Positions 8,689 through 35,805 of a stretch of DNA of 64,000 nt are shown here, piece by piece. Every line of letters starts with the position of its first letter. The first letter of the stretch is position 1. The notes under the pieces are model-generated. The model saw only the letters and a list, made by a program, of their open reading frames with translations. It ran no database searches and was not told the origin of the DNA. Source of the DNA: Streptantibioticus cattleyicolor NRRL 8057 = DSM 46488 (GTDB taxonomy: Bacteria > Actinomycetota > Actinomycetes > Streptomycetales > Streptomycetaceae); the NCBI RefSeq assembly GCF_000240165.1, contig NC_017585.1, forward strand, positions 558,001-622,000, given 5' to 3'. Position numbers and translations under genes: made by a program.

Positions 8689-9603
<915 letters not shown>

Positions 9604-16058: not shown

Positions 16059-16095
16059 GGGGCCCGCCGGGCGCGCGCCGGCCCGGCGGGGCCCC
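16059..16095. terminator. Bidirectional hairpin terminator
   Basis: GGGGCCCGCCGGG pairs with CCCGGCGGGGCCCC (one bulged base) around a ten-base loop. It lies between the convergent stops at 16044 and 16101, so it can serve both genes. Confidence 0.8.
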
Positions 16096-31234: not shown

Positions 31235-32293
31235 TCACACCGGCGTGCTCGTACTCCCCCGCACGATCAGATGGGGGTCTATCACCACGCGCCGGGTCCC
31301 GGTGGCGCCGCCTTCGACCTGGTCGAGGAGGAGGCGGATGCTGGCCCGGCCGACCTCGGTGAAGTCCTGGCGGACGGTGGTCAGCGGCGGGGCGAAGAAC
31401 TCCGACTCGGGGATGTCGTCGAAGCCGGCCACCGCGACGCGGCCGGGGACCGCGAGGCCGGCCTCGCGGAGGGCGCGCAGCACACCGAGGGCCATCTGGT
31501 CGTTGGCCACGAAGACCGCGGTGACCTCGGGGTCGCCGCCGTGACCGGGGCCGGCCAGGACGCGGCCGGCGAGCTCCTGCCCCGCGCGGTAGCCGGACAG
31601 CGGCGTCCAGTCGCCGACCAGCGGGGCCGGCACCGGGGCGCCGGCCTCCTCCAGCACCGCGCGCCACCCTGCCGTACGGGCGCCCGCCTCCAGCCAGTCG
31701 GGCGGGCCGGCCACGTGCCACACGGTGGTGTGGCCGGCCGCCAGCAGGTGGCCGGTGACCAGCCGGGCGCCGAGCGCCTGGTCGACCGAGACCCCGGAGA
31801 TCTCCAGGTCGTGGCCGCCCTCCACGGTGACCACCGGGAACGGCGGCCTCAGTGCGGCGAGCGCGGACACCGCCTCGCGTTGCGGGACGATGACGACGAC
31901 GCCCTCCACGCCCCACTCGCCGAGGTGCGCGAGCGCCTGGGCCAGCCCCTGGGGGCTGAGCCGCCGCAGCGAGACGGCGGAGACCAGGTAGCCCTCGGCG
32001 CGGGCCGCCTCCTCCAGGCCGGCCAGCGTGCTCGCCGGGCCGAACAACGTGGTGTTGCAGGCGACCACGCCCAGGGTACGGGTGCGCCGGGTCGCCAGCG
32101 CCCGCGCCGAGGAGTTGCGCCGGTAGCCCAACTCCTCGATGGCGCGCAGAACTTCGGCCCGGGTGCCCTCACGCACGTTGGGGTGACCGCTGAGCACCCG
32201 GGACACCGTCTGGTGCGAGACCCCGACCAGCCGCGCCACGTCGGCCATGGTCGGGGAACGGCGCCGCGCTGGGTCTTCCGCGGTCTGCGACAC
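31235..32293 (-). CDS. LacI-family regulator of the arabinose genes
   Basis: This is a 352-residue repressor. The helix-turn-helix and hinge are MADVARLVGVSHQTVSRVLSG, NVREGTRAEVLRAIEELGYRRNSSARALATRRT (residues ~16-70). A periplasmic-binding-protein-like effector domain follows (TLGVVACNTTLFGPASTLAGLEEAAR, VFVANDQMALGVLRALREAGL, VAGFDDIPESEFFAPPLTTVRQDF). The GTG at 32293 (VSQTAEDPARRR) was chosen; longer frames run through the operator. Operators at 28480, 30350 and 32458 mark the likely regulon, so the inducer is presumably L-arabinose or a derivative (inference). Confidence 0.93.
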   Translation of the reverse strand: MSQTAEDPARRRSPTMADVARLVGVSHQTVSRVLSGHPNVREGTRAEVLRAIEELGYRRNSSARALATRRTRTLGVVACNTTLFGPASTLAGLEEAARAEGYLVSAVSLRRLSPQGLAQALAHLGEWGVEGVVVIVPQREAVSALAALRPPFPVVTVEGGHDLEISGVSVDQALGARLVTGHLLAAGHTTVWHVAGPPDWLEAGARTAGWRAVLEEAGAPVPAPLVGDWTPLSGYRAGQELAGRVLAGPGHGGDPEVTAVFVANDQMALGVLRALREAGLAVPGRVAVAGFDDIPESEFFAPPLTTVRQDFTEVGRASIRLLLDQVEGGATGTRRVVIDPHLIVRGSTSTPV

Positions 32294-32457
32294 GACCTCT
32301 CCCGTCGTCGAGCTTGCCGGCGCCGTCCGAACGCGCCGCCGGGGACCGTTCCGGCGCCTCCGGCCGCCCGGCCTCATCCTACGGCGACCCCCCGGCCACG
32401 CAGAACGCCCTCGGGCCCACCCGCCGAAGGCTCGGCCGGTCACCCGGCGCCATTGTA

Positions 32458-32473
32458 TTGTGAGCGCCAACAT
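32458..32473. promoter_or_regulatory. LacI-type operator between lacI and alditol oxidase
   Basis: TTGTGAGCGCCAACAT matches the araD-proximal operator in 14 of 16 bases. It is 44 bases before the oxidase ATG and 165 bases before the lacI start, so it can control the oxidase and perhaps lacI itself. Confidence 0.8.
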
Positions 32474-32517
32474 CACGATCGACGGCCACCCTTCGGGGCC
32501 GGACGGGAGCGCGGCGG

Positions 32518-34170
32518 ATGGCTGGTCCGAGCACCAACAGGCAAGCGGCGGGCGCCAACCGGGCGGAGACGGGTCCGGAAGCCAACCGGGCGGGGACCGG
32601 GCCGGACAGCAACCCGGCGGGGGCCGGATCGGACAGCAACCGGACGGGGACCGCACCGAACACCATCCCGGCGGGGGCCGGACCGACCACCGACCCGACG
32701 GCGACCGGACCGGACATCACTCCGGCGAGGACCGCCGCACCGGACACCAACCAGACAGACCCCGGGCCGACAACCACCCGGACAGGGACCAGGCCGAACA
32801 CCAACCCGACGGCAACCGCACCGGACACCACCCCGGCGCCGACCGCACCGGACACCAACCGGATAGACGCCGCACCGGACACCAACCGGACAGACGCCGC
32901 ACCGACCACCACCCCACCCCCGACCGCGCCCGTCACCAACTGGGCCGGGAACATTCGGTTCCGGGCCAGTCGCCGCGCGGCCCCGGGCTGCGTGGACGAT
33001 GTCCGCGAACTGGTGGCGGCCTCCCGGACGGTACGGGTGCTGGGCACGGGTCACTCGTTCAACGACCTCGCCGACACCACGGGTCTGCTGCTGGCCACCT
33101 CGGCGCTGCCGAAGTCGGTGGAGATCGACGCGAGGGCGGGGACGGTGACGGTGGGCGCCGGGGTGAGGTTCGGCGAGTTGACCGGGGTGCTCCACGCGTC
33201 CGGGCACGCGCTGCACAACCTCGGTTCGCTGCCGCACATCTCGGTGGCCGGCGCGTGCGCCACCGGCACCCACGGCGCGGGCGTCGGCAACCCCTCCCTC
33301 GCCGCGGCCGTCCGCGCGCTGGAACTGGTCACCGCCGACGGCGAGTTGCTCACCCTGGACCGTTCCGACGAGCGCTTCCCCGGCAGCGTCGTCGCCCTCG
33401 GCGCGCTGGGTGTGGTCACCCGGGTCACCCTCGGTCTCGTCCCCGCCTTCGACGTCCGGCAGTGGGTGTACGAGGGCCTGCCCACGGCGGCGTTGCGCGA
33501 CGGGCTGGACGAGGTGCTGTCGGCCGCGTACAGCGTCAGCCTGTTCACCCGCTGGCGGGGTGAGCGCGTCGAGCAGGTGTGGCTCAAGCAACGGGTGGAC
33601 GGCGCCGCGCCGGTGTGTCTGCCGGGTGCGCGGCTCGCCGACGGCCCGCGCCATCCGGTGCCGGGCATGGCACCCGAGGCGTGCACCCCGCAAGGTGGCG
33701 TCCCGGGCCCCTGGCACACCCGGCTGCCGCACTTCCGGCTGGAGCACATACCGAGCAGCGGTGCCGAGACGCAGTCGGAGTACTTCGTGGCCCGTTCCGA
33801 CGCCTCGGCCGCCTTCGCCGCGCTGGACCGGGTGCGCGAGGAGTTCGCGCCGGTGCTGCGGATCGGCGAGGTCCGCGCGGTCGCCGCCGACGACCTGTGG
33901 CTGAGCCCGGCCCACCGGCGTGACTCGGTTGCCTTCCACTTCACCTGGCTGCCGGACGCCCCCGCGGTGGCCCAGGCACTGCACCACGTCGAGCGGGCGC
34001 TGGCCCCGTTCGCGCCCCGTCCGCACTGGGGCAAGGTGTTCGTCACCCCGCCGGAGACGCTGCGCGAACGCTACGAGCACCACGACCGCTTCCGCCGCCT
34101 GATGACCGCCCTCGACCCGGCGGGGAAGTTCCGCAACGACTTCCTGCGCCGGCACTTTCCGGAGGCGTGA
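32518..34170 (+). CDS. Alditol oxidase (FAD-dependent) with repeat-coded N-terminal extension
   Basis: This is a 550-residue enzyme. From residue 138 it aligns by eye with alditol/xylitol oxidases: VTNWAGNIRF, VRVLGTGHSFNDLAD (His that takes FAD covalently), LPHISVAGACATGTHG and the C-terminal LDPAGKFRNDFLRRHF. Known members are near 420 residues and oxidise xylitol or sorbitol to the aldose plus hydrogen peroxide. The first 137 residues are instead thirteen degenerate nine-residue repeats (P-D-T-N-R-T-D-A-A type). No ATG, GTG or TTG codon occurs in frame between 32518 and the conserved core, so the extension must be translated. A GGGAG precedes the ATG. A LacI operator lies just upstream. 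Confidence 0.92.
   Translation: MAGPSTNRQAAGANRAETGPEANRAGTGPDSNPAGAGSDSNRTGTAPNTIPAGAGPTTDPTATGPDITPARTAAPDTNQTDPGPTTTRTGTRPNTNPTATAPDTTPAPTAPDTNRIDAAPDTNRTDAAPTTTPPPTAPVTNWAGNIRFRASRRAAPGCVDDVRELVAASRTVRVLGTGHSFNDLADTTGLLLATSALPKSVEIDARAGTVTVGAGVRFGELTGVLHASGHALHNLGSLPHISVAGACATGTHGAGVGNPSLAAAVRALELVTADGELLTLDRSDERFPGSVVALGALGVVTRVTLGLVPAFDVRQWVYEGLPTAALRDGLDEVLSAAYSVSLFTRWRGERVEQVWLKQRVDGAAPVCLPGARLADGPRHPVPGMAPEACTPQGGVPGPWHTRLPHFRLEHIPSSGAETQSEYFVARSDASAAFAALDRVREEFAPVLRIGEVRAVAADDLWLSPAHRRDSVAFHFTWLPDAPAVAQALHHVERALAPFAPRPHWGKVFVTPPETLRERYEHHDRFRRLMTALDPAGKFRNDFLRRHFPEA
32575..32928 (+). repeat. 27-bp tandem repeat array inside the alditol oxidase gene
   Basis: Thirteen units of nine codons (one has ten) lie head to tail, with consensus P-x-T-N-x-x-x-x-x. 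The unit after the last repeat is the conserved enzyme start P-V-T-N-W-A-G-N, so the array looks like an expansion of the original 5' end of the gene. Units at 32848-32901 are closest to each other and diverge towards the 5' end. All reading frames are open in this stretch because of its composition. Confidence 0.85.
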
Positions 34171-34266: not shown

Positions 34267-35805
34267 TCAGATCGCCTGCGGGAAGTCGAAGAGGCGCTGC
34301 GGGTCGTACTGGCGCTTGACCGCGGTGAGCCGGTCCAGGGCGGGGCCGTAGTAGGCGCGGCGCCAGTCGGTGAGCGTGGGGTCGATGTAGTTCTGGTAGG
34401 CGGCGCCGGAGGCGTAGGGGCGCATGGCGTGGTGGATGCCGGGCAGCCAGGCGGCGCTCTCCAGCGGGCCGGAGGCGAGGTACTGAGCGAGGAACCGGGA
34501 GCGGCGGTGGACGAACGCGGTCGCCGTGGGCGCGACGCGGTTGACGGCGCCGCCGAGCGCGGTGAGCGCGACGCTGCCGGCGCCGCCGCCGGTGGCCTTC
34601 CGCAGCCGTTCCACCTGTGCCACCAGCGTGTTGGCACCGGCCACGGACAGCGAGCGGTCGTAGAAGTCGGAGCGCGCGGTGTAGGTTTCGCGGTCCAGCC
34701 GGCCGGCGGGGTTGCGTCCGGGGGTGCGGCCGGGCAGGTGGCACTGGGCCGGGCTGCGGTCGGTGCAGCCGGCGTAGGCGTTCATCGCGTCGAGGTAGGT
34801 GTGGTGGCGCAGTGAGACGCTGCGGGCCGGGCTGCCGATGCGGGCGGCGAGCCGGTCGACGGCGTTCTGGAGTCCGGAGTAGGAGCCGAGCGAGAAGGCG
34901 GCGACCGACAGGGTGGACGATCCGCCGGTGGCGCACTCCAGATGGAGCGAGGACCAGATCTCGTCCGGCTGCTCCGGGCCCCACTCCTGCCAGGCGCGGA
35001 CCGCCGCGACCGCCTTCGACCACGGCCAGGTGAGGTAGGCGGTGACGCACGCGGGCGCGGGGTGGGTGCGGTAGCGCAGTTCGGTGACGACGCCGAAGTT
35101 GCCGTTGCCGGCGCCGCGCAGCGCCCAGAACAGTTCGCTGTTGTGCCGGGCGTCGGCCTGGACGGTCCTGCCGTCGGCGGTGACCAGGGCGGCGCCGGTG
35201 AGGCTGTCGCAGGTGAGCCCGTACGCGCGGGCGGCCACCCCGTGTCCGCCGCCGAGGGTCAGCCCGGAGACGCCCACGGTCGGGCAGGAGCCGGCGGGTA
35301 TGGTCCGGCCGCGCCGGCCGAGGGTGTTGTAGACGTCGATGAGCTTGGCGCCGGCGCCCACGGTGGCGTCCGTGCCGGACACCGAGATGGCGGCCAGGTT
35401 GGAGACGTCGATCACCAGCCGCCCGTTCCCGGAGGACCAACCGGCGTAGGAGTGGCCGCCGTTGCGGATGGAGACCGGCACCTTGGCCCGGCGGGCGAAG
35501 GCGAGGCACTCGGCGATGTCGCCGGCCCCGGAGACGTACGCGACGGCCGCGGGCCGCAACCCGTCGAACCGCGTGTTGTACAACCGGCGGGCGGTGTCGT
35601 AGTCGGCGTCGCCGGGGCGTATGAGCTTGCCGTGGAGGCCGTGTTGCAGTGCCGTCCAGTCGGCGCCGGCCCGGGGCCGCGGGACGGCGGTGGAACGGGG
35701 CCGGGCGGTGGCGCTGGGCTGCGCCGCGGCGGCGACCGCCCCTCCCCCGGCCGCCGCGACCGCCAGGCCGGCCCCGGTACGCAGCAGAGTTCGCCGGTTG
35801 GGCAT
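34267..35805 (-). CDS. Exported BBE-like FAD oxidoreductase
   Basis: This is a 512-residue berberine-bridge-enzyme-type flavoprotein. A Tat-like signal (NRRTLLRTGAGLAVAAAGG) starts it. The FAD domain has VPVSIRNGGHSYAGWS, whose His binds FAD, and YGLTCDSLTGAALVTADG, whose Cys would give the second, 6-S-cysteinyl, link typical of bicovalent members. The C-terminal QNYIDPTLTDWRRAYYG is the BBE signature. Members oxidise sugars, oligosaccharides or secondary metabolites with oxygen. It is convergent with the alditol oxidase. AAGGA precedes the ATG. Confidence 0.92.
   Translation of the reverse strand: MPNRRTLLRTGAGLAVAAAGGGAVAAAAQPSATARPRSTAVPRPRAGADWTALQHGLHGKLIRPGDADYDTARRLYNTRFDGLRPAAVAYVSGAGDIAECLAFARRAKVPVSIRNGGHSYAGWSSGNGRLVIDVSNLAAISVSGTDATVGAGAKLIDVYNTLGRRGRTIPAGSCPTVGVSGLTLGGGHGVAARAYGLTCDSLTGAALVTADGRTVQADARHNSELFWALRGAGNGNFGVVTELRYRTHPAPACVTAYLTWPWSKAVAAVRAWQEWGPEQPDEIWSSLHLECATGGSSTLSVAAFSLGSYSGLQNAVDRLAARIGSPARSVSLRHHTYLDAMNAYAGCTDRSPAQCHLPGRTPGRNPAGRLDRETYTARSDFYDRSLSVAGANTLVAQVERLRKATGGGAGSVALTALGGAVNRVAPTATAFVHRRSRFLAQYLASGPLESAAWLPGIHHAMRPYASGAAYQNYIDPTLTDWRRAYYGPALDRLTAVKRQYDPQRLFDFPQAI

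Follow-up and report, generated by a model that had tools for sequence, protein, structure and literature searches.

An alditol oxidase of Streptantibioticus cattleyicolor with a predicted 138-residue N-terminal tandem-repeat tail that most likely arose from the start of its own gene

We have identified an alditol oxidase gene on the 1.8 Mb linear megaplasmid of the antibiotic producer Streptantibioticus cattleyicolor (Streptomyces cattleya) NRRL 8057 = DSM 46488 whose predicted product begins with a long tail of tandem repeats. The best explanation of the whole, and one that we consider probable, is that the gene duplicated its own first codons in tandem and that the copies are translated as a disordered, tolerated and nearly neutral tail. 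A 27-bp unit would have been duplicated about fifteen times, presumably by replication slippage or unequal recombination within the gene start. The start codon and its ribosome site would have been retained in the outermost first copy, and the folded enzyme would have its functional beginning in the last one. Translation of the intervening copies would yield a disordered, Pro/Thr/Asn-rich tail of 138 residues, drifting unconstrained and tolerated because the N-terminus of the enzyme is free. Judging from the sequences compared, what is new here is this 138-residue repeat-built front end, which was seen in no other relative examined.

Architecture of the array and its genomic setting

The reading frame occupies 32518..34170 on the plus strand and comprises 550 codons and a stop when read from ATG 32518 (all positions are those of the window, the whole 64 kb stretch of DNA that was analyzed). 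Counted from this ATG, 138 residues lie ahead of V139, the first residue of the VTNWAGN motif (codon at 32932). The first-pass annotation gave a 137-residue extension, which holds when P138 is assigned to the core. Two irregular units, MAGPSTNRQAA and GANRAET, occupy 32518..32571 and contain the sole usable start codon; the second is shorter by two codons. They are followed at 32572..32925 by 13 consecutive regular units of about nine codons each, of which twelve are 27 bp long and one, at 32734-32763, is 30 bp long owing to one added codon. The regular units read, in order, GPEANRAGT, GPDSNPAGA, GSDSNRTGT, APNTIPAGA, GPTTDPTAT, GPDITPART, (A)APDTNQTDP, GPTTTRTGT, RPNTNPTAT, APDTTPAPT, APDTNRIDA, APDTNRTDA and APTTTPPPT. 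Next comes APVTNWAGN (32926..32952), a junction unit that fits the array in register as its last copy and at the same time forms the conserved start of the enzyme. The thirteen nine-codon repeats initially described ahead of VTNWAGN are borne out in array, frame and coordinates. Unit length changes by +1 and -2 codons only, always in multiples of three, and there are no in-frame stops. With tandem units, a multiple-of-three length and a frame intact across all copies, the array has the features of a coding minisatellite, albeit a diverged one. Its copy number may differ from strain to strain, as the first-pass annotation suggested.

Tandem Repeats Finder reported periods of 27, 54 and 81 bp for the array and a score of 247, the highest in the window. 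Within a 464 kb sample of the genome, it was the longest tandem array (334 bp) and the third-scoring one. Further long tandem arrays were observed in the same genome at L162:1367-1632 and L169:15500-15762 (42 bp x 6 and 132 bp x 2). A dispersed repeat was ruled out, as a search of this genome and 149 other genomes of the family found the array once in the genome. Beyond its own locus, only short low-complexity matches of 35-60 bp occurred, at many places in this and related genomes.

A gene for a LacI-family regulator (31235..32248, minus strand; Pfam LacI and Peripla_BP_3) is divergent from the alditol oxidase gene. Altogether, the minus strand between 25012 and 32248 encodes a sugar-binding protein, a class II aldolase, an FGGY kinase, a GNAT protein and the LacI regulator, and the FGGY kinase is araB-like in a plasmid record. 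The divergent LacI gene, together with the FGGY sugar kinase, class II aldolase and sugar-binding protein, suggests that the alditol oxidase gene is probably part of a regulated pentose or pentitol locus. Upstream of ATG 32518, at 32457-32480, inspection by eye revealed TTGTGAGCGC, a candidate half-site resembling LacI-family operators, within TATTGTGAGCGCCAACATCACGATC. A simple scan of the region for a sigma-70 promoter or terminator found none. Directly downstream, a second FAD oxidase gene, of the berberine-bridge type, is located at 34267-35805 in convergent orientation. Inheritance of the LacI gene as a pair with the alditol oxidase gene was rejected, because no relative had a LacI match at E <1e-40 beside its alditol oxidase gene; LacI-family matches at the relatives' loci were weak only (3/80). 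A viral or phage origin was also rejected, there being no related locus in viral contigs.

The alditol oxidase core and its relatives

The core (32932..34167, plus strand) matched Pfam families PF01565 (FAD_binding_4; E 1.6e-22) and PF04030 (ALO; E 3.3e-18). Its closest PDB entries were the alditol oxidases 8ot8 and 2vfr (E 2e-151 and 5e-133), with which it aligned end to end, and Foldseek comparison of the predicted core with both structures gave TM-scores of 0.93-0.95 (by target length). The active site of AldOAb comprises His45, for covalent FAD, and the catalytic residues Ser103, His118, Gln295, Glu327, Arg329, His350 and Lys382 (PMC10771423). All eight are kept in the PDB-search alignment as H179, S237, H252, Q419, E451, R453, H474 and K506. 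In addition, N141 and W142 are invariant across 37 proteins. Based on alignment, fold match and residue conservation, the gene product is an ordinary alditol (sugar-alcohol) oxidase of the VAO-type flavoprotein AldO family with an intact active site, and it is predicted to oxidize alditols. A start codon within a few residues of NWAGN, which is usual in the family but not catalytic, is absent here, and the nearest in-frame ATG, GTG or TTG lies 140 codons before N141. Since such a start is not a defining catalytic feature, membership in the alditol oxidases stands. A match of the tail to coagulation factor V in the PDB search was discarded as a chance low-complexity match.

At more than 110 related loci, 1-37 codons separate the nearest in-frame start from NWAGN, compared with 140 here, and the repeat tail is unique to the window's gene among these relatives. 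The initial statement that known alditol oxidases begin at the motif was thus close but slightly off, as the relatives start a short distance ahead of NWAGN and not exactly at it. In a tree of 58 cores, the window's protein grouped with six others (support 99/94), five of which start with MSDTTT or MTDTT before NWAGN and the sixth with MSGTIT. The arrayless start of this sister clade reads ATG AGT GAC ACC ACC ACC AAC TGG GCG GGG AAC (MSDTTT-NWAGN). Such starts in the sister clade point to a tail of about six residues as the likely ancestral state, and to an expansion on the window's own branch, the length of which is 0.39 changes per site. Elsewhere in the family, a supported Streptomyces clade has Pro-rich N-terminal tails of 14-37 residues; for loci L029, L036, L045, L046, L047, L136 and L141 of this clade, the range noted was 20-37 residues, e.g. 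VPHTPRPAGAPHSESATGTPDEAEGASPGGPIPPAIR.

Origin, constraint and translation of the tail

A unit profile was built from the 13 regular units and scored against the in-frame 18-mers of alditol oxidase genes (28,860). The 18-mer of the core start, ACC AAC TGG GCC GGG AAC, had its highest score in precisely the register that continues the array (11.3 bits, P about 3.5e-5). The corresponding sister start, ACC AAC TGG GCG GGG AAC, scored 13.6 at the same register, a value reached by none of the in-frame controls; the chance of the sister-start match in the rest of the window was 5.5e-5 at a fixed register and 7e-4 at any register. Because the arrayless sister start outscores the core start at this register, the likeness of the unit extends to the ancestral start and is more than a resemblance to its neighbor. 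Identity to the sister start declines unevenly along the array, from 15/18 in the first regular unit, which is the best, to 9/18 in the last. This resemblance of unit to start rests on 18 bases of low-complexity composition, and it points to the start of the gene itself as the most likely source of the repeat unit. The first-pass annotation had noted that the conserved start fits the repeat pattern and had proposed that repeated duplication of a unit at the 5' end of the gene gave rise to the array; the in-register best score agrees with the former, and the latter is well supported by the match of both the core start and the arrayless sister start to the profile.

Alternatively, an unrelated low-complexity, GC-rich minisatellite could have expanded before the gene and then become fused to it, with its likeness to the NWAGN codons due to chance or later convergence. 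This is the alternative that survives best, although we regard it as unlikely. The genome does contain other diverged GC-rich tandem arrays, and the short matches to the array scattered over this and related genomes would suit such an origin. Against it stands the register-exact match to both the gene's own start and that of an arrayless sister clade, and the array itself occurs at no other locus.

Whatever the source of the unit, the tail and core differ in constraint. Among the array units, pN was 0.34 versus a pS of 0.22, whereas the first 139 core codons, compared with the sister clade, gave a dN of 0.25-0.29 and a dS of 0.72-0.90 (dN/dS about 0.3-0.4). The tail residues are unconstrained and the core is under purifying selection. 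In the AlphaFold model, residues 1-135 have pLDDT values <50 with blocks near 30 (mean about 30), and the core is confidently predicted. The model suggests that the 138-residue, Pro/Thr/Ala/Asn-rich tail is probably disordered, in agreement with the disordered tail first proposed, and searches of it for domains and signals were negative. Function is compatible with a bulky addition at the N-terminus, since published alditol oxidases are active when fused N-terminally to His6-SUMO (PMC10771423). Activity was likewise seen for the S. coelicolor enzyme fused to a Tat signal, although this signal was designed for removal on export (PMC3917463). By analogy with these homologues, it is plausible that the present enzyme functions with its bulky N-terminus. 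Given the active homologue fusions and the unconstrained tail residues, we favor a tolerated extension, inferred to be nearly neutral, over a selected one.

Selection of the tail for a function in solubility, localization, partner binding or turnover strikes us as rather improbable. The open frame could be read in its favor, as could the Pro-rich tails of the supported Streptomyces clade, by which tails are seen to recur in the family. Nevertheless, the array residues have no conservation beyond shared descent (pN > pS), the tail is unique among the more than 110 relatives, and it lacks any domain or signal that we could find. We assign an equally low probability to a more far-reaching proposal, in which a housekeeping-type enzyme acquired an extended disordered domain through serial duplication of its own first nine codons, the start codon staying outermost. 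This would be a datable route, within a single gene, to new bacterial N-termini, possibly with a selected role in the regulated sugar-alcohol locus of the megaplasmid.

The stretch from 32518 to the core lacks any further in-frame ATG, GTG or TTG, as had been noted initially, and the only other candidates are two ATC codons and one ATA codon. ATG 32518 has the best Shine-Dalgarno pairing of the in-frame candidates (-9.6 kcal/mol, with GGGAG 8 nt upstream), although the strength of this pairing is ordinary, only within the top 10% of random positions, and to that extent counts against it. The junction copy alone retains NWAGN, the W position being occupied by P, R or Q in the other 13 regular units. 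Because N141 and W142 are invariant and the tryptophan is kept only at the junction, selection is acting on these codons and they must be read by the ribosome, and ATG 32518 is the only canonical start upstream of them, which supports translation from there. By synonymous codon use, the array looks most like a gene in this one of the six frames (0.37), but the value is lower than for any of the 138-codon segments of real genes used for comparison (minimum 0.44); the low score may be due to the repeat origin or, equally, to lack of translation. From the features of the reading frame, we infer that translation starts at ATG 32518 and that the tail would be present in the real protein. The +3 frame of window positions 32518-32930 reads as a more regular peptide (RTGHQPDRRRTGHQPD...) without a stop. 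Codon-position variation fits this +3 frame slightly better, a difference that is not significant, and a column permutation test of the array gave no significant excess of second-position variation (P 0.15), so codon-position rates by themselves are given no weight here.

If the array were instead an untranslated leader, the ordinary start would have been lost and a non-canonical start within the array or near the junction would yield an enzyme of normal size. Codon use less gene-like than in any real gene piece and substitutions that are not concentrated at third positions (pN > pS) would be expected of such a leader, and the in-frame ATC and ATA codons could serve it as starts. We nonetheless judge it improbable: pairing at these rare codons reaches -5.7 kcal/mol at best, against -9.6 kcal/mol for ATG 32518, the usable ATG is followed up to the core by multiple-of-three changes only and by no in-frame stop, and the RNA structure is no more than that expected by chance (z 0.16). 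A structured RNA leader was ruled out by the same comparison, in which the array folded no better than its shuffles.

Two assemblies of the megaplasmid, both of one strain designation, contain the array in identical form, and the sequence surrounding the gene agrees with NC_016113.1 (pSCAT) at 9,501/9,501 bases. These records have lengths of 1,812,548 bp (the window's contig) and 1,809,491 bp (NC_016113.1), so they are different assemblies. The window appears to belong to the assembly of the group that reports its own complete sequence under CP003219 and CP003229 (PMC4989188). A single-base indel relative to NC_016113.1 at window position 16066 is the sole difference across 49 kb, and it lies outside the array. 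Since two differing assemblies agree over the array, an isolated assembly error does not explain it. Misassembly at tandem repeats is well known, but an artefact of this kind, a concern raised in the first-pass annotation, or a decayed gene is hardly credible in view of the agreement between differing assemblies, of copies that are only partly alike and hence allow unique assembly, and of a core that is intact and constrained.

Implications and comparison with known systems

In this gene one can read how a bacterial enzyme may grow a disordered N-terminal region from its own coding start: the ancestral start is preserved in a sister clade, one end of the array holds the start codon and the other end holds the functional copy. 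Alditol oxidases have industrial use. For automated gene callers and for those cloning members of the family, the gene serves as a warning that the long form is probably the real reading frame. No view of alditol oxidase chemistry is changed. The repeat-tailed gene combines an alditol oxidase and a coding minisatellite, both of which are known. Although unusual, it is clearly an instance of ordinary repeat expansion and not of a new system.

AldO of Streptomyces coelicolor (PDB 2vfr) and AldOAb of an actinomycetote (PDB 8ot8) have the same end-to-end core, fold and AldOAb active-site residues as the protein described here, but they carry the motif at about residue 5-9, and a 138-residue repeat tail precedes it only in the present gene. 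The Streptomyces short-tail clade (L029, L046, L047, L136 and L141) is similar in having a disordered-looking, Pro/Ser/Ala/Thr-rich tail before NWAGN and a start codon preceded by a good ribosome site, but its tails of 14-37 residues contain no tandem repeat and belong to a separate clade. Intragenic coding minisatellites, protein tandem repeats that evolve under relaxed selection (cf. PMC5120217), share with our array the multiple-of-three tandem units, the kept frame and residues that are free to diverge. In contrast to those, the unit here would derive from the enzyme's own N-terminal codons, and its final copy is part of the folded enzyme.
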